The position numbers and the translations under genes were made by a program. A stretch of DNA of 42,328 bases. Origin: Sphingobacteriales bacterium (lineage in GTDB: Bacteria > Bacteroidota > Bacteroidia > Chitinophagales > JADJOU01). Numbering within the stretch: position 1 is the stretch's first letter; each line of letters opens with the position of its first letter. Positions 19,756-29,594 of the stretch are shown here, piece by piece. Below the pieces are notes generated by a model that did no database searches, had not been told where the DNA came from, and saw only the letters and a list, made by a program, of their open reading frames with translations. The DNA lies in the NCBI GenBank assembly GCA_021297855.1, contig JAJTHM010000056.1, forward strand, positions 1 to 42,328, written 5' to 3'.

Positions 19756-19763
19756 TCGCACTA

Positions 19764-19847
19764 GCTTGCTAGGGGTGTCCGTGATACACGAGACTGAGAT
19801 AATACCCTAACACCTGATCCAGATAATACTGGCGTAGGAAAGGAAGC
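19764..19847 (+). ncRNA. TPP (THI-element) riboswitch
   Basis: The conserved core is almost canonical: AGGGGTGTCC, ACTGAGATAATACCCT, ACCTGATCCAGATAATACTGG and CGTAGGAAAG, in the right order and spacing. GCTT (19764-19767) and AAGC (19844-19847) can close P1. It binds thiamin diphosphate. Downstream, TTTTAAG (19854-19860) can pair with CTTAAAA (19873-19879) before a short T-run, a possible expression platform. It controls the receptor gene at 19932. Confidence 0.95.
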
Positions 19848-19931
19848 CGAGAGTTTTAAGGATATAGTTCTACTTAAAATTTTCAATTCTCCTCTTAGTT
19901 TGCTTTATTTAATTGATAATAATAATTAATA

Positions 19932-22133
19932 ATGAATAACTGTAAACGCACTATCTTAACTCTTTTCCTCATTCAATTTGGGTTATCCTATCATGCACAA
20001 AATGATAGCACTAAAACACTAAGTGAAGTGCATATCAAAGCTATCCGCGCCAATCGACAAATGGCGACTGCATCCACGACGATTAAAACTTCAGAGCTTC
20101 AACATTTGAATCTAGGTCAGGATATTCCGAGCTTGATTCAGCAGTTGCCTTCCTTGCAACTATCCTCTGATGCGGGCAATGGTATTGGCTATTCCTACCT
20201 TTATATCAGAGGCATGGATGCTCAGCGCATTCAAGTCAATATCAATGGAGTTCCATACAATGATGCTGAATCACAAGAAGTCTATTGGGTCAATATTCCA
20301 GACCTTCTTAGTAGTGCAGATGATATTCAAGTACAGCGTGGAGTAGGCTTCTCCACGATGGGTGGTACAGGTCTAGGTGGCTCTATTTCCATAAAAACAA
20401 CGAAACGCCACGCAAAACCATTTCTACAATTTCAAACGAGTTTAGGCAGCTTTAATACATTTCGAAATAGCGTTCAAGCCTCGACAGGTGTGATGAGTGA
20501 TGGATGGCAGATAACTTCGCGTGGTTCTTTGATTCAAAGCGATGGATATATAGATAGAGCATGGTCTAGACTAGGATCATTTTATCTAGATATTTCTAAA
20601 TACGGAGATAAGTATTCTTCCCATTTGATCGCATCACACGGTCGTGAAAAAACCTATCAATCCTGGTTTGGGCTGAGTCAAGAAGACTATAACACTGGTG
20701 AGAGAACAAAAAATATAGCGGGTACGGATTATGAATCTAAAGTTGGAGAGCCTTATACTAACCAAATAGACAACTATCATCAAACCCATGTACAATGGAT
20801 ACAAAATTTTCTTTGGAAAAATGGTCATCAATCATCGCTTACTGGTTTTTTTACACGTGGCCTTGGCTTTTATGAAGATTATAAAGTAGGACAAAACTAT
20901 TCTGACTATGGTCAAGGAATTTTGGGAAATGGAGATTTGGTAAGGCAGTTATGGTTAGACAATTATCTCTATGGTGTAAATGCTTCACATATTCTTGAAA
21001 AAACAAAATTCACCAACACATTGGCTCTTTCCTACTCAAACTATCGTGGTGATCATTTTGGTAGAGTGCCCCAATTCTTTAGCTTAGTAAATGGTAATTC
21101 TTCTGATAGATTCTACAACAATGAAGCGATGAAATCAGACCTAACTGCTTTTAATAAATTCATCTACAAAATGAAAAGCTCCAATCTAGTTTTGGACATT
21201 CAATTGCGACAAGTTAATTACTCTACTGCAGGCAGTTTGCGAAATCAAACGACGATTTCTTTCGATAAAAACTTTCTCTTTTTCAATCCAAAGATTGGAT
21301 ATATACTAGATATAAACAATAAAAATAAGCTTTACTTCTTTGCAGGTCTCAGCCATAGAGAGCCTGTGCGCAGTGATTTTCTCGACGAAGATGCCTTGAG
21401 CCAACCCAAACCAGAAAAAGTTTATAATCTAGAATTAGGTTATGAGAAAAAATGGACATCGAGCGAACTTAAAGCTAATCTATTTGGTATGTATTTTATA
21501 GATCAACTCGTTCCGACTGGAAATATCAATACTGTCGGTGCACCGATTCGTGAAAATGTAGGCAAGAGTTACAGGGCAGGAGCGGAATTTGAGTTTAGCT
21601 ATAAATTATCGAAGCAGCTAAGTTTCTACACCAATCAATACGTTGCTCTTAATAAAATCTTAGATTATACAAGTTACATTATAGCCTATAACGAAGATGA
21701 CTACAGCATTAATTCCTCAAAAACGGAAAAGAACTTTTTCTCCTCGACCCATATTGCATTCTCTCCATCCTGGATATCTTATGCAGAGATACTGTATACT
21801 CCATGGACAGGTACAGATATCCGATTTATGAATAAAACCGTGAGTCAGCAATATTTGGACAATACTTCCTCGTCCCAAAAATCAATTCCACTTTATAATG
21901 TATCCAACATTTCTCTATCTTATTTATTAAAATCAAATAAGAAATCTGGAGAATGGACATTCAATTTATTGCTCAATAATATTTTCAATGCCGACTATAT
22001 CAGCAGAGGATATACTTATCACAGTGGAAATACAATCAGCACTACGGGAACTGTAACCGAGGGTCGAGATTACAATTTTTACTTTCCACAGGCAAGATTT
22101 AATTTTCTATTTGGACTTGGATGGAAGATTTAA
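19932..22133 (+). CDS. TonB-dependent outer-membrane receptor, probably for thiamin
   Basis: 733 residues: signal peptide (about 1-22), plug domain (about 45-155; SEVHIKAIRANRQM and IRGMDAQRIQVNINGVPYND) and a beta barrel ending in LFGLGWKI with the terminal aromatic pattern. There is no N-terminal carboxypeptidase-like domain. The TPP riboswitch 85 bases upstream marks it as a thiamin or thiamin-precursor importer, as proposed for riboswitch-linked receptors in Bacteroides relatives. No thiamin synthesis or inner-membrane transporter gene is adjacent; the inner-membrane step must be elsewhere. Confidence 0.9.
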   Translation: MNNCKRTILTLFLIQFGLSYHAQNDSTKTLSEVHIKAIRANRQMATASTTIKTSELQHLNLGQDIPSLIQQLPSLQLSSDAGNGIGYSYLYIRGMDAQRIQVNINGVPYNDAESQEVYWVNIPDLLSSADDIQVQRGVGFSTMGGTGLGGSISIKTTKRHAKPFLQFQTSLGSFNTFRNSVQASTGVMSDGWQITSRGSLIQSDGYIDRAWSRLGSFYLDISKYGDKYSSHLIASHGREKTYQSWFGLSQEDYNTGERTKNIAGTDYESKVGEPYTNQIDNYHQTHVQWIQNFLWKNGHQSSLTGFFTRGLGFYEDYKVGQNYSDYGQGILGNGDLVRQLWLDNYLYGVNASHILEKTKFTNTLALSYSNYRGDHFGRVPQFFSLVNGNSSDRFYNNEAMKSDLTAFNKFIYKMKSSNLVLDIQLRQVNYSTAGSLRNQTTISFDKNFLFFNPKIGYILDINNKNKLYFFAGLSHREPVRSDFLDEDALSQPKPEKVYNLELGYEKKWTSSELKANLFGMYFIDQLVPTGNINTVGAPIRENVGKSYRAGAEFEFSYKLSKQLSFYTNQYVALNKILDYTSYIIAYNEDDYSINSSKTEKNFFSSTHIAFSPSWISYAEILYTPWTGTDIRFMNKTVSQQYLDNTSSSQKSIPLYNVSNISLSYLLKSNKKSGEWTFNLLLNNIFNADYISRGYTYHSGNTISTTGTVTEGRDYNFYFPQARFNFLFGLGWKI

Positions 22134-22318: not shown

Positions 22319-22349
22319 TTGACAATGTCAAAACATTCATTTATATTTG
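22319..22349 (+). promoter_or_regulatory. Promoter P2 with overlapping dyad
   Basis: TTG 22319-22321 and TATATTTG 22342-22349, again 20 bases apart. The -33 box is part of the perfect dyad TTGACAATGTCAA (22319-22331), which could be a repressor site. Transcription would start near 22356. Confidence 0.6.
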
Positions 22350-22712
22350 CAAAATGAAAATAACTATACAACATGATATGCCACACTTGTCAACCTATTC
22401 ATTTACCCCCCCCCCAGTACTTATAGTATATTAAGCTGCTTAGGGTTCGGAGCGAATGATTGCCTAACCTCTTCTTTATGCAGAGGTGGTAGTCCTTTAT
22501 TAGGCCTATCACATATATCCTCTATCGTTTCATTTATAGTCTATCGAGTTGTATATCTATCTCTAAGACTAATCTATATTCAAAATAAACCGCAGGTCAT
22601 CACTTCGGAAAAAGCTAAGATGACCCACGGCGGAGCTTACACACTGCCTGTAATTAAAACAGACAAGCCTGTAGAATATCCCACAGGCTTTGTGTAAGTT
22701 TTTCTGTTTTGA
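22350..22712 (+). ncRNA. Structured leader or small RNA with terminator
   Basis: A 350-base stretch without a gene. It has a C10 tract (22406-22415), the mutually exclusive pairings TTAGG(22440-22444)/CCTAA(22463-22467) and GCCTAA(22462-22467)/TTAGGC(22499-22504), the hairpin CCTCT/AGAGG (22468-22485), the hairpin GGTCATC/GATGACC (22594-22624) extended by outer CCG/CGG pairs, and finally CTTACACA with TGTGTAAG enclosing AAGCCTGT/ACAGGCTT, followed by TTTTTCTGTTTT. This looks like a transcript that starts at P2 and stops near 22712, either an independent RNA or a leader controlling the gene at 22812. It matches no RNA family I can name, although the 6S-like class of this phylum should be tested. 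Confidence 0.5.
22636..22710 (+). terminator. Nested-hairpin terminator before the T9SS pair
   Basis: CTTACACA pairs with TGTGTAAG; inside, AAGCCTGT pairs with ACAGGCTT around the loop AGAATATCCC. A run TTTTTCTGTTTT follows. The stem is strong for such AT-rich DNA. Confidence 0.65.
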
Positions 22713-22811
22713 AAAATGTTATTTAGCTCAGAATAATGCGGCTAAATCTTTCATTTTCTGTAAAGATAAACAATTATGAAAAGAAAAAATTTAATTTTAA
22801 ATCAGAAAATA

Positions 22812-25800
22812 ATGAAAAAAATATTTTTAGCAATTAGCCTTCTACTTTCTGTGGCTGGGCTAAATTCGCAAACAAATCAGTGGTTAAACATTCTAAGTGT
22901 GGATAACCGAACCGCAAATACATGTGGACACGCAAGTATTGATATTTTTGCAAATTTGGATCAAGTGGCTCTAGGTAGCAATCCAGCAGCTGATAATCAA
23001 CCAAGTTTTGCCAGTTTTTGGGTGCATATTTTGGATTGTGAAGACAATCTAATATTTAGCTTTATTATGCATCCAATGCTCACCAATGTAGCTCCATCAT
23101 TTAACTTTACGCATTTAAAATGGGGATATAATCTCATGATACCCTTATCGCAATCTGAAACAATAAAATTGCTTCAGAATGACAATAAATATAAAGTAGT
23201 GGTAGAACTAACTGATTATGATATGCTACAAGATGACCCGAACTGGGACTGGAGTGGCGGAGCTTCTTCTCCTGCCATTAATCTATCTGCTGGAACTTTT
23301 GGATGGACACCAGGAAACAACATGGATCCCAATTCTTATTTCGGAGGTTCAATGAGATACTCAAGAGCAGAGCATTCACTATTGGGTGCTTTTAGCGGCT
23401 TATCTGGATCAGGTTCTGGAACGCTTCAAGGAATTAGTAGTTTAGGAGCTTTAATGCATCCTTCTGCCCCAGGTTCATGTGCCCTCACAATGAAATATGC
23501 TTTTAATCTTATTGCCTTTCCTACCACACCAGGAGCTTCACTTACCTATGATATTAGCTTATATGAGACGAGTTCTTCTATTCCAGTCTATACAACTACT
23601 AGATCGGTATCTATGCCTACTACTCCAGGCTCCATCAATGACAATTTATTTCCTGCCGGATTAAAGTCAAACACCAATTATGATGTCGTGATTTCAAACC
23701 TCAGGTTTATGTTAGGCCCTGCACCACTTCCAGAGGCTTATTGTTATTACTTCAGCTTGGCGGCACCTTGTAAATGTGTTAATTCGCTAGCCAATATGAA
23801 CTATGAAGCTGGACCTACTACTAGCTGCTATAAATTTACATTCTCTAGTGTCATGTCTCCATGCGATCCTAGTGCGACCCCACCTTCTATACCAGAACTG
23901 GTGAATAATGCAGGAAGTTCATTCCCATTCCCGAATGCGAATCAACTATCCTACTATGTGAAGGTAAATACCACGACAGTATTATCACCTACTACTACAG
24001 GTATGGGTAGCAGTGCTCCTCTCAAGGCTGCCATCTGCGCCAATAATACAAGTGTAGCTCAAAATATGACTATTTTCTTTCCTCAGGTGCAGAGTACGCC
24101 AGTTCCCAACCCTCCAGGTGCTACTACCTACAAGCTAGAACTTTATGAAGAAGGCTCTACCTCTCTCTTGGCTACTGAAAATGTAGGAACTGCTCCACGC
24201 ATAGCGCCTATTACCATTACTAAAAATGTTTTTAGTATCTTTGGTTCCTACTTTACCAATAATGCGAATAAGAATAAGATGTATAGAGTCAAACTAGTCG
24301 CTTATTTTCTTAACTGTCCCGTGCACTGTGACAAGGTGGTAGGAGAGTTCAAACTCGCTATACGCTATCAAGAGTCACTCGGTACTTCTCCAGACTTATT
24401 ATTTGGGTTTAGTCAGCTATGGACTCAGAATAATAATTACGCGACTAGTCCATCTAACTATACCACTCAGTTTCAAACCTTTTTCAATGAAGAGACGGGT
24501 ATATACAAGCTTATGCTTCATTCACCAGCGGTTACTAGCTTAGGGGTCAATGAATTCGGCAATATCTACGGAACGGTATTTCATCCGACCAATCCTACCC
24601 TCAATTTCAATATAGCTCCTAAATTTATAGGTGATCAGAATACTCAGGAACTCACTAGCCTGACCAGCAGTACGAGCCAGAATTTCATACAGTATTTCAT
24701 AGCCAATAACGCGGCACTGAAAAATCGAAATGTCAAATTCCAAGTCAAATACTACTCCTCCTGTCCAGAGCCTAATGGCCTCACCTATACAGGCGATATG
24801 AAAGTCAACTGGAGAGATTATGCACGTGCGAATTGTACCGTAGATCTAACTTTGAGTAGTAATACCTCTACAGGCCAAGGTGCTAGCTTGATGACGACAA
24901 GCAATTCGACGTTTAATAGAAACCTTGCTGGAACTGGACTAAACACCATAGTTCAAGCGACTAACCCAGCAACGCCTTCAGGTCTGGGTAGCCAAACGGG
25001 AAATTTCCGATTGATTCTGACGAATTTATCTACCAACCAAGAGCTCAATAGTCTTGGACTACAAATTTTTGAGGATAAATGTTTAGTACAGACCGGTGGA
25101 AACTGCACGCAGTATTCTGGGGAGCAATGCATCTACAACTGTGACCCAAATGGTATTTATTATTCGGAATTGCTCAATTTTCAGCGTCAGGGAATAGCGG
25201 GTCCTAGCCCCAATGTACTCACTACGGCGAATCAAACCCTCTACTTCCCTATCAATAACCCGAATAAGCAGTTCAAAGTGGCAGTAAATGACGATTTCTT
25301 TCCGGGTTATAAATCATTCAACTTTTTTGGAAGCAATTTCGGAAATTGCTTGTTCAAACCTACCTTGCCTTGTAATTATTTCTCAAACCTAGGCACGGGG
25401 ACTGGAAATATCAATAGACACAATAAGTATAAAGTGCGTATTCACCGAAATCCTGCCGTCACGCCTAAGCATAACTTTGCCTGGGCTACAGGGGTCAATT
25501 TTAAAGACTATTATTTTAGACTACAAGATGCCTCCGGATTCAATACTAAAATGGCTGGGGCTTCGGCGGATTTAGAACCTTTGGAGGCGAATCGACTGGA
25601 TCTATGGGCGCATGGAAAAGCCCTGAGCTATCGCATGATGCTGACGGATAAATCCCAATTCGGCCTCGTGGTCTATGACCTCATGGGCAGAGAAGTCTAT
25701 CAGCAGGCGAGTCAGGAGTATAAGGAAGGCATGCTAGAAAGTAAGCTGGAACTCCCTCACTTGAATTCTGGTTTATACATAGTGCGTGCGACCCTCAATG

Positions 25801-25835
25801 GACAGGAAATTTCCCAAACCTTGAGGCTGGAATAA
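22812..25835 (+). CDS. Large T9SS (type A) secreted protein
   Basis: 1007 residues from the ATG at 22812, which begins a good signal peptide (MKKIFLAISLLLSVAGLNS). A frame from 22776 would put 12 charged or polar residues in front. The body has no domain I recognise; it is rich in Ser, Thr, Asn and Pro, with scattered paired Cys (CKCVNSL, CYKFTF, CTQYSGEQCIYNC) suggesting disulphide-stabilised extracellular domains. The last 80 residues form a type A sorting domain (VVYDLMGREVYQQ, then SGLYIVRATLNGQ). It should be displayed on or released from the surface. It is followed after 15 bases by the second large protein. Confidence 0.85.
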   Translation: MKKIFLAISLLLSVAGLNSQTNQWLNILSVDNRTANTCGHASIDIFANLDQVALGSNPAADNQPSFASFWVHILDCEDNLIFSFIMHPMLTNVAPSFNFTHLKWGYNLMIPLSQSETIKLLQNDNKYKVVVELTDYDMLQDDPNWDWSGGASSPAINLSAGTFGWTPGNNMDPNSYFGGSMRYSRAEHSLLGAFSGLSGSGSGTLQGISSLGALMHPSAPGSCALTMKYAFNLIAFPTTPGASLTYDISLYETSSSIPVYTTTRSVSMPTTPGSINDNLFPAGLKSNTNYDVVISNLRFMLGPAPLPEAYCYYFSLAAPCKCVNSLANMNYEAGPTTSCYKFTFSSVMSPCDPSATPPSIPELVNNAGSSFPFPNANQLSYYVKVNTTTVLSPTTTGMGSSAPLKAAICANNTSVAQNMTIFFPQVQSTPVPNPPGATTYKLELYEEGSTSLLATENVGTAPRIAPITITKNVFSIFGSYFTNNANKNKMYRVKLVAYFLNCPVHCDKVVGEFKLAIRYQESLGTSPDLLFGFSQLWTQNNNYATSPSNYTTQFQTFFNEETGIYKLMLHSPAVTSLGVNEFGNIYGTVFHPTNPTLNFNIAPKFIGDQNTQELTSLTSSTSQNFIQYFIANNAALKNRNVKFQVKYYSSCPEPNGLTYTGDMKVNWRDYARANCTVDLTLSSNTSTGQGASLMTTSNSTFNRNLAGTGLNTIVQATNPATPSGLGSQTGNFRLILTNLSTNQELNSLGLQIFEDKCLVQTGGNCTQYSGEQCIYNCDPNGIYYSELLNFQRQGIAGPSPNVLTTANQTLYFPINNPNKQFKVAVNDDFFPGYKSFNFFGSNFGNCLFKPTLPCNYFSNLGTGTGNINRHNKYKVRIHRNPAVTPKHNFAWATGVNFKDYYFRLQDASGFNTKMAGASADLEPLEANRLDLWAHGKALSYRMMLTDKSQFGLVVYDLMGREVYQQASQEYKEGMLESKLELPHLNSGLYIVRATLNGQEISQTLRLE

Positions 25836-25850
25836 GAATCAAATTAAACT

Positions 25851-28800
25851 ATGCAAAAAAAAATAGCTAATTTTTATCCTTTCCCTATCCGCCTCGGCAG
25901 ATGGGGAAAGGTTTTTTTAATTTTAGTGTGGATTCTTCTTTATCAAGAAGTTGATTCACAATCTATCTCCCATGCTTATAAAAATCAATTAGACACTAGT
26001 CAGAAATTATACTATGGAGCTAATTTTAATCTACTTTTGAATTCTAAAAAAAATAAGACCAATAATGAATTGATGAATTTTTACTCTCCTTTTCATAACT
26101 CTAGACCTAAAATTGTTAACTATACTATTCAATCCAATTTTAGTTTATCTACAAAAACAACCAGTCTAAAATTCACTCAATTTAGGCCCATGTTTTATCT
26201 GCCAGAGGATAGTTCATTTTTCGCTAACTATGCTAATGATAATCTAATAGCAGTGGATAAAAATGGCAATTATTATCAATTCAAATACCTATATTATACG
26301 AATGATAAATTTAAACGAGACTATACTGTGGTCAAATACAATGCTCAATTGGAAAAACTATGGTCGAGAAAGTTCTCAATAAATGGAATTGTGGGCTTAT
26401 CATCATATTCTAGCCCTGAGACTAGTTTTACCTTTCTAAATAAAGAAGATGCCATTCAGGAATTTAATGATGGTAGTTTTATTCATGTCAATCATAATGC
26501 AAATACAAATCAAAAGTTGATTTATAAAATTAGTGCCAATGGTACTTTAGTTAAAACAAGAAAAATTAAAAATCTAAAATTGACTACCCCTCCTTATACA
26601 GAGTTTAGACCAACTATTGATGTTTTGGTCAGAGACAATTATTGCTATATACTTTACAATAATTACCTCATCAAGCTAGATAGTCAGCTCAATCTATTAA
26701 ATTCCGTATTATTACCTATTCAATATAAGATAGGTCAGAATTATAATTATGATATTTTTTTCGATAGGAAATCAAACTATAATAGCGATAAACTTGGTAT
26801 TGTAAAGATTTCTAATCAAGGCGCACCTTCTGCTGGCTATTTGCCAGATAGTATAAATTTCCTAGACACCTTTTATATTATAGATACTAGTCTTCAAAAT
26901 ATAAATCGATTCCGCCATAATTACCTAGGGGAAGAAAATTATAATGATTGGGGTTATGGCATAGTGAATTGGCAGTATGCAGATAAAATTAATTCCCCTG
27001 AGTTTGACTACTATTTTCATACTCGTGCTATACAGATGACGAATGACTCTACCTGGGATATCGTCTGCTATAACAAGGCTATCGATGACCAAGTGCTGGG
27101 CATCCGCCATATTCAGTTCGACCCTCGCAAGCGAGAGGTTAGAAAAAATAATTTCACCCCTATCCCCAAACTCTATCCCCGAGGGTCTTTTGTAGATTCA
27201 TTCAATCGACATATTAGACTCACCGGTCGCGATTTTTTTAATATTAATTTCGTGGATCATAATGAGTTTGTGGTCAATCAGGTCTCGGATTCAATGCATT
27301 GGTACGATAAATACGCCATTATCCATGTCAAGAATTTTGATTTTAGTCCGCTGAATACCTATCCCACCACCTGTGATCGAGGCTTTTTCCTCGATACACT
27401 GGCACTGAGCTATAGCTACCCTGCTGGCACCCTCACGGATACTACCCTCAGTCTGATAGCAGTCAATGATTCCAGTATCTTTCGAGATAGTATCATTCCA
27501 TCCTATAACCTACCAGCTCAGACCTATTATGGGGATCTAGGCCTACTCAATGCGAAATTTAAACTAGATAAGGACTCTAGCTGTGCTGCTGCGTTGGCTC
27601 TGCGTTCGGACTCTAGCCTCAAGTCTGGTGAAAGCCTATGGATAGTTCGCTATCTAGATTATAGTCATACGGATAGTCTGCGAGGCATAAATTACCTAGA
27701 CTATATGGCCGTCTATGGAGGTCGTATTCAGGTTACCCATATCCATAGTCTCAATTTTTGTACGGATATATATATAGATACCACGTATAAAAAAGGTGTC
27801 AGAAAAAATTATGCAAAGATGGACAGCTTTCTCTGTTCTCCCATATCCCATACGGTGACGCTTCCTCTGTATAAGAGCTTCAAATATCTCTGGTACCATG
27901 ATTTAGATACTATGCGCTTCAGCACCCTGACGGATACAGGGCTGTATAAATTTTCTATCTGGAATAGCTGTGGAGGCTTGACCGATAGTTTCCGAATCCG
28001 TTCGCAGATAGTCGGAGGTTTTTCTACTAGTAATATGGTGGTCTGCAAGCAGAAGCTTCCTGTGGTTTTGCACAGTCCGCACAAGAGTCCCTTGGCGAGC
28101 TATAGGTGGAATATCAGTACTACAGATACACTCGATAGTCTGAAAGTCTCGAGCTATGGCTGGCAGCGTATCGTCATCACGACTCCATGCAGTAGTTTGA
28201 CAGATAGTATATATATCGACTCTCCGCTTATAGTGATACCTTCCCACCCCGACTCTATCTCCCTCTGCGCCACCACCTACAAAATCACTCGCCCACAAAA
28301 TCTAAGACTAGAGGAAAAATTCGTGAATTCGTGGCTAAATAGAGACAGTCTCATTCTCACAAAAAACCAAAAACTCGTCTTCCGCTGGACAGACAGCTGC
28401 GGCACGGTGACTTACGACTCTATCTATGACTATCAGCGAGGAAGTTTCCCTTCCCTCCCTAAGTCTCAAAAACTCTGCGAAACCTTTGCGAGCTTAATTA
28501 CAAATACCCAGACCACTATCACCCAATTTGAATTCGTGAATTCGTGGCAACCTAACAATACTGTCAATTTACAACTCGGCCCGAACTATATCCGCCGAGA
28601 CGATAACTGTGGCAATACGCAGTTCGATACTATCCTCGGCTTCTCCACTAAGCAGCCTAAAAACATTATCACAGAAGACAGCCTCGTGCTCTGTCCGCAG
28701 GAGTTTCCCTATACGCTCACGGTATCGGATACCTTCAAAACTTATCTCTGGTCAAACGGCGACAACTTGCATTATTCAAAATTAAAAATTAAGAATTCAA

Positions 28801-29594
28801 AATTCTACACAACAGTGACGGATGATTGTTACATGTACACCGATTCTATTGAGGTCAAAGAAATCACGACGCCGAATGAAATCGCCCTCGAAGACATCTA
28901 TCGTGAACTATGCAAAGCACTCGAAAAAACAAGAGTAGAGACCAAGCTCACCTATCCGCAATATATCTGGAATCAAGCCGCCTCGAATAAATTCTTCTAT
29001 ATAGCCGATACGAGTCAGAATCTCGTGACCCTCTATATCCCTCGCCGCTGCGATACATTGAAAGACTCTATAGCCCTCTATTGGCTTGACCCTCGTCTGA
29101 CACCACCGCTTTATACGGTAGATAGTAGCTATTGTAAGCAAGCCGAAGGTGCTGTGAAACTCACGCTCACGAACCGAAACGACTATCTATCCTATCTTTG
29201 GAAAGGGGATAGTCTACCCTATATCTTCGTGAACACTTTGGGTACGACCAAGTTCTTTGCAAAGAATCTCTGCTATGAAAAATACTTCGATATTCCACCT
29301 TATTCTTGTCCTTTAGATCCTATAGGTTTGCCATCAGCATTTAGTCCGAACGGCGACAAACTGAATGATAGCTGGGGCTTACAGGGAGCGAAGAATATCA
29401 TCCTCCACAGTCTGAGTATCTATAACCGATGGGGAGAGAAAGTATTCGAAACCACCAACCCAAATCACGTCTGGGACGGTAGCTACAAGGGCGAACCTAC
29501 ACCTCTAGGCAGCTATCAGTACTATATCGACTATGAATACACTCCACAGGGCATTAGAAAAAACCATAGAGGGGAAGTGAGTGTGGTGAGGTAG
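25851..29594 (+). CDS. Giant Ig-repeat adhesin-like protein, T9SS type B (CHU_C)
   Basis: 1247 residues. An N-terminal membrane-type signal with a positive start is followed by an unrecognised region to about 660 that has the look of a beta-propeller reporter (YNAQLEKLW, KISANGTLV). Then come seven repeats of about 72 residues. Each opens with a Cys (VVCKQ, SLCAT, KLCET, LVLCP, ELCKA, SYCKQ), has Y-x-W or similar, and closes with a second Cys before a D-S-I-like end, so each is likely an Ig-like module with a disulphide. The last 85 residues are the gliding-motility CHU_C domain (PSAFSPNGDKLNDSW, NRWGEKVFET, WDGSYKGEPTPLGSY). It is probably a cell-surface adhesin cotranscribed with the preceding gene. 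Confidence 0.87.
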   Translation: MQKKIANFYPFPIRLGRWGKVFLILVWILLYQEVDSQSISHAYKNQLDTSQKLYYGANFNLLLNSKKNKTNNELMNFYSPFHNSRPKIVNYTIQSNFSLSTKTTSLKFTQFRPMFYLPEDSSFFANYANDNLIAVDKNGNYYQFKYLYYTNDKFKRDYTVVKYNAQLEKLWSRKFSINGIVGLSSYSSPETSFTFLNKEDAIQEFNDGSFIHVNHNANTNQKLIYKISANGTLVKTRKIKNLKLTTPPYTEFRPTIDVLVRDNYCYILYNNYLIKLDSQLNLLNSVLLPIQYKIGQNYNYDIFFDRKSNYNSDKLGIVKISNQGAPSAGYLPDSINFLDTFYIIDTSLQNINRFRHNYLGEENYNDWGYGIVNWQYADKINSPEFDYYFHTRAIQMTNDSTWDIVCYNKAIDDQVLGIRHIQFDPRKREVRKNNFTPIPKLYPRGSFVDSFNRHIRLTGRDFFNINFVDHNEFVVNQVSDSMHWYDKYAIIHVKNFDFSPLNTYPTTCDRGFFLDTLALSYSYPAGTLTDTTLSLIAVNDSSIFRDSIIPSYNLPAQTYYGDLGLLNAKFKLDKDSSCAAALALRSDSSLKSGESLWIVRYLDYSHTDSLRGINYLDYMAVYGGRIQVTHIHSLNFCTDIYIDTTYKKGVRKNYAKMDSFLCSPISHTVTLPLYKSFKYLWYHDLDTMRFSTLTDTGLYKFSIWNSCGGLTDSFRIRSQIVGGFSTSNMVVCKQKLPVVLHSPHKSPLASYRWNISTTDTLDSLKVSSYGWQRIVITTPCSSLTDSIYIDSPLIVIPSHPDSISLCATTYKITRPQNLRLEEKFVNSWLNRDSLILTKNQKLVFRWTDSCGTVTYDSIYDYQRGSFPSLPKSQKLCETFASLITNTQTTITQFEFVNSWQPNNTVNLQLGPNYIRRDDNCGNTQFDTILGFSTKQPKNIITEDSLVLCPQEFPYTLTVSDTFKTYLWSNGDNLHYSKLKIKNSKFYTTVTDDCYMYTDSIEVKEITTPNEIALEDIYRELCKALEKTRVETKLTYPQYIWNQAASNKFFYIADTSQNLVTLYIPRRCDTLKDSIALYWLDPRLTPPLYTVDSSYCKQAEGAVKLTLTNRNDYLSYLWKGDSLPYIFVNTLGTTKFFAKNLCYEKYFDIPPYSCPLDPIGLPSAFSPNGDKLNDSWGLQGAKNIILHSLSIYNRWGEKVFETTNPNHVWDGSYKGEPTPLGSYQYYIDYEYTPQGIRKNHRGEVSVVR
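27830..29293 (+). repeat. Seven Ig-like repeats in the adhesin
   Basis: Unit ends with the Cys...D-S-I pattern fall near 28000, 28220, 28425, 28637, 28858, 29080 and 29293, a spacing of about 205-222 bases. Two neighbouring units share the exact stretch TTCGTGAATTCGTGG (28320 and 28532 region, encoding FVNSW), a sign of recent unit duplication or conversion. Confidence 0.7.

Follow-up and report, generated by a model that had tools for sequence, protein, structure and literature searches.

The window analyzed here is a 42,328-nt contig of a Sphingobacteriales bacterium, and it raises the question of what is encoded in the 363 nt at 22350-22712, which lie between a promoter and a pair of genes for cargo proteins of the type IX secretion system (T9SS). 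The initial annotation described this region as a structured orphan transcript and offered three readings: a new small RNA, a 6S-like RNA of the phylum, or a leader acting as a switch for the surface-protein operon. The promoter it placed at 22319-22349 (+ strand) was borne out. TTGACA (22319-22324) and a 17-nt spacer are followed by TATATTTG (22342-22349), which we take to be the Bacteroidota -7 consensus TAnnTTTG, and 11 of 12 sigma-70 positions are matched. The first downstream gene (22776-25835, or from the ATG at 22812) encodes a 1019-aa protein with a type A sorting domain and the second (25851-29594) a 1247-aa protein with a type B (CHU_C) sorting domain, both on the + strand. The C-terminal sorting domains score 24.8 bits for TIGR04183 (cut-off 23) and 57 bits for TIGR04131 (cut-off 35), and they confirm the annotated pair as a T9SS cargo operon. 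On the other side of the region, a TPP riboswitch (19761-19857, + strand; 58.7 bits, gathering score 54.3) is located directly 5' of a TonB-dependent receptor gene (19932-22133), which suggests thiamine-related uptake.

Rfam was searched with the window leader and with five related leader loci, the check that had been proposed for the 6S reading, and there was no match at the gathering score. A laxer search returned chance-level hits only, with no 6S family among them. The leader resembles 6S RNA and 6S-Flavo in being a structured stretch of Bacteroidota RNA, as first suggested, but it differs in lacking an Rfam gathering hit and in the absence of 6S from the lax list. 6S or another known RNA was therefore ruled out for the window and the five loci. 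A search of the window for tmRNA and tRNA found neither.

The claim that no reading frame explains the region proved to be wrong. A frame of 107 codons including the stop (22377-22697, + strand, stop to stop) runs across it and ends in ...KPVEYPTGFV*. The only ATGs able to reach the long part of this frame (22378 and 22354) are in a different frame and are separated from it by a C10 tract (22406-22415, + strand), and this is why the long frame escapes ORF lists. From the ATG at 22378, the sequence with C10 would be translated as MPHLSTYSFTPPPVLIVY*, ending at 22434 (22378-22434, + strand); position 22354 offers an alternative in-frame ATG. Computed products for different tract lengths are 18 aa at C10 and 15 aa at C9. 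At C8, C11, and C14 the ATG enters the frame of the long ORF, giving products of 105, 106, and 107 aa, respectively, with the PTGFV end. The C10 tract is the longest G/C run of at least 8 in the 3.1-Mb genome, a length that rests on one assembly, as for every leader copy, and that the assembly has possibly misstated.

Five further copies of the leader were found, one in the same genome (G000:C112) and two in each of the congeners G001 and G003 (L015 to L019). The 21-mer TATCCCACAGGCTTTGTGTAA (22677-22697, + strand) is identical in all six copies, and in every copy it closes one open frame ending in ...YPTGFV*. The named records carrying this 21-mer are Chitinophagales or Saprospirales MAGs. 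The frames of L015, L018, and L019 have their own ATG and encode 63-64 aa, and the long frame of the window is homologous to these ORFs, aligning through conservative changes (SGKVNLSYGSSH / SEKAKMTHGGAY). L017 repeats the window design with a C8 tract that gives 18 aa at present and 82 aa at C9, and L016 has the frame without an ATG. In the window and in L017, the C tract is the only link between an ATG and the frame, and one tract length in three makes the connection. A test for open frames upstream of the conserved core gave p values of 0.011-0.056 per copy and a Fisher combined value of 5e-5 over five copies, with the true support somewhat below this figure because the copies are partly kin. 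The codon comparison suggests purifying selection, evident in the closest pair (pS 0.193 vs pN 0.105) and with weak signs in most other pairs. A candidate third copy in the same genome, at C50, was rejected because the match sits within a gene. A covariance model (R1) built from the six copies was run against 299 genomes of the order and gave no convincing hit beyond these six; the weaker hits inspected fell in coding genes, at an rRNA end, or on ordinary terminators, and an RNA family across the order was set aside. About 165 nt from the uORF stop to the start of the secreted protein are also conserved in five copies (L015/L018; alignment A1 columns 112-190), and they contain a long-range helix with two covarying pairs (CG/UA, UA/CG). 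This noncoding part is missing or much altered in the window copy.

The homopolymer tracts are concentrated in these leaders. There are 11 G/C runs of at least 8 in the genome of the window and three in G001, and 4 of the 14 are within the four leaders of the two genomes (0.004 expected, P = 1.4e-11); the remaining runs are mostly within long ORFs. The G8 runs of L015 and L016 stop 5 and 12 nt short of the -7 box, on its upstream side, at the expected position of the promoter spacer, and L018 and L019 have shorter G runs (5 and 6) at the same position. Phase-variable genes have two classical designs, with the slippage tract either in the promoter spacer or in the early codons. Both placements are found in this one leader family, as rare long tracts able to shift the promoter spacing or the frame. 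The occurrence of C and G runs on opposite sides of the promoter had prompted the idea of an invertible promoter, which was set aside by eye only. Elsewhere in the window, a C9 tract (1352-1360) lies just past the stop of an ATPase-like gene on the minus strand (1360-1680; judged by eye to be HATPase/anti-sigma-like). G/C runs of 8-9 also occur in intergenic repeated words (GAGCTGGCTC / GGTGAGC-like) at G000:C46:50424 (L066), G002:C29:1440 (L105), and G002:C20:447 (L102); these stretches are alike in style across two species and are possibly a dispersed repeat array.

The annotated stable folding of the region exceeds chance. The 363 nt fold at -89.4 kcal/mol (z = -4.06), and none of 100 shuffles did better. 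The complementary strand folds even more strongly (z = -4.88), so folding does not fix the strand. Of the mutually exclusive pairings described around GCCTAA (22462-22467), the competition itself was recovered as a difference between the MFE and centroid structures, but the segment is not conserved in the other copies. Hairpin H1 (22590-22633, + strand; -14.3 kcal/mol) holds an internal in-frame ATG (22620) in its 3' arm. The nested terminator annotated at 22636-22710 corresponds to H2, a terminator-like hairpin (22635-22699, + strand; -23.9 kcal/mol, z = -5.3) adjoined by the T-run TTTTTCTGTTTT (22699-22710, + strand), the two together forming the putative attenuator/terminator. H2 is missing from the + strand list of a simple terminator scan because of its internal loops, and it is no textbook terminator. 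The stem plus T-run of an intrinsic terminator is predicted in the window copy only, as the other five copies have no T-run behind H2. The TAA of the long frame (22695-22697) falls in the 3' arm of H2, just ahead of the T-run, and the stop of the short frame at 22434 is about 200 nt 5' of H2.

The layout of the reading frames, the C tract between them, a stop codon that overlaps the terminator, and paralogous leaders of secreted-protein operons in which both the ORF and a tract recur point to a phase-variable, translation-coupled attenuator, and the T9SS operon probably has in this region a 5' leader acting in this way. We infer a tract of changing length in cells, termination of transcription at H2, and prevention of this termination by ribosomes. 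Transcription would start just past 22349, and ribosomes would begin at the ATG at 22378 (or 22354) and read into the C10 tract. With C10 or C9, the ribosome would stop within a few codons, some 200 nt before H2; the unprotected RNA would fold into H2 and, with the T-run next to it, RNA polymerase would terminate, leaving the operon OFF. Replication slippage to C11 or C8 would allow the 105/106-aa frame to be read to the TAA at 22695-22697, where the ribosome would cover the 3' arm of H2 and the T-run and hold the hairpin open, and transcription would continue into the two T9SS genes as the ON state. The assignment of C10 as OFF and C8/C11 as ON would follow by analogy with the pil1 locus of S. 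gallolyticus. H1 may keep the internal ATG at 22620 closed in the OFF state. Copies whose G tract separates the two promoter boxes would switch at the transcription start instead. Since only the window has a T-run behind H2, the other copies may switch at the promoter or by Rho, and attenuation in them would need another terminator or Rho.

The switched item could instead be the small protein itself, a phase-variable and partly hydrophobic product of 63-106 aa; its ORF would then be the operon's first gene and the hairpins would be incidental. The presence of the frame in six of six copies and the separate ATGs of L015, L018, and L019 are consistent with this reading, and a promoter G tract would switch the whole operon with the ORF included. 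The N-terminal halves are strongly divergent, however, L016 has no start, and Pfam gave no match for the small product. Across the last 21 nt the copies do not differ even at synonymous sites, and the window stop is placed inside the terminator arm. A protein as the sole target is unlikely, and the ORF product may have a role of its own in addition to attenuation.

A structured regulatory RNA would make the open frame coincidental, whether as a riboswitch-like leader or as a small RNA of about 350 nt released by the terminator. The z scores of the region and of H2, the 21 invariant nucleotides, and two covarying pairs that the non-window copies show 3' of the ORF stop are the features expected of such an RNA, but covariation sought among the leader copies yielded few pairs, changes are conservative codon by codon, and there is no Rfam match. 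The frames are open in five copies at the Fisher value given above, the conserved part is the end of the reading frame in every copy, and conservation tracks the reading frame and the position before secreted-protein genes. These results make a pure RNA element improbable. The absence of an ATG in L016 and the out-of-frame state of both tract-bearing copies make decay conceivable, but a pseudogene derived from an ancestral small ORF by frameshift is very improbable given that both breaks fall exactly at rare C tracts, the frame is still open behind them (stop-to-stop 107 and 73 codons), and both the promoter and the terminator are preserved. The most likely identity of the orphan transcript is a phase-variable attenuator leader that is translated. 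Of the original options, the operon-switching leader is the best supported, with a slippage tract in a reading frame as its mechanism and not an RNA switch alone, and the 6S option is unsupported.

The 1019-aa protein of the window has no relative among 60 related genomes, which limits the comparison to paralogous rather than orthologous leaders. All five other leaders precede a small secreted protein of about 130 aa, and in L016, L017, L018, and L019, which are all four copies whose contigs continue, this gene is followed by one for a giant secreted protein of about 1200-1300 aa. DUF7948 was identified in the one giant protein scanned, and the remaining ones are homologous to it; the one small secreted protein tested (L018) had no Pfam or NCBIfam match. 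The small secreted protein and the DUF7948 giant form a recurrent operon of the genus. DUF7948 operons without the leader exist, which shows that the leader is not tied to the DUF7948 protein, and together with the lack of a relative for the window protein this makes the leader a module of secreted-protein operons rather than of one gene. It is quite possible, as a more tentative extension, that this uncultured Chitinophagales lineage has duplicated a single leader module, consisting of a phase-variable ORF ending inside a hairpin, and employs it for stochastic ON/OFF switching of unrelated T9SS or secreted surface operons, with the tracts in the ORF or in the promoter.

Phase variation in Bacteroidota is known mainly as DNA inversion. 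To our knowledge, leader-peptide phase variation with attenuation is known from one streptococcal species, and we know of no other example in Bacteroidota or the type IX secretion pathway. A search of the open-licence literature on leader peptides, phase variation, and attenuation gave pil1 as the one clear case, with none in Bacteroidota among the papers listed. If correct, the present reading extends this form of control to that phylum and to type IX secretion, explains surface-protein variation in uncultured environmental Bacteroidota, and makes the simple prediction of C10 OFF and C8/C11 ON, which is checkable in existing metagenome reads.

The window leader shares a slippage-prone tract with the poly-C/poly-G and other slippage contingency loci of Campylobacter, Neisseria, and Helicobacter. 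Those loci carry it in a surface gene, either in the promoter or among the first codons, and in the window the tract among the early codons belongs to an upstream ORF and not to the surface gene. Repeat tracts in both the promoter and the coding region have been described for SabA (PMC2715451). The closest parallel is S. gallolyticus pil1, where 22 copies of a GCAGA pentanucleotide repeat change the frame of a leader peptide and translation of the longer peptides finishes within or beyond a stem-loop terminator, allowing transcription of the pilus operon, as shown experimentally (2014, PMC3894217). In both systems a repeat tract is located in a short ORF between the promoter and the first surface gene (in the window, C10 between the ATG at 22378 and the open frame), the frame determines if translation ends far ahead of a stem-loop terminator or within it (predicted in the window at 22434 vs 22695-22697), and a surface structure is encoded downstream. 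The two differ in that pil1 has a GCAGA repeat, belongs to Firmicutes, and controls pili, whereas the window has a C10 mononucleotide tract, belongs to Chitinophagales, and precedes T9SS proteins. The function of pil1 was tested experimentally and that of the window leader is predicted, and paralogous leaders have conserved the window ORF, although some of them carry a promoter G tract instead.
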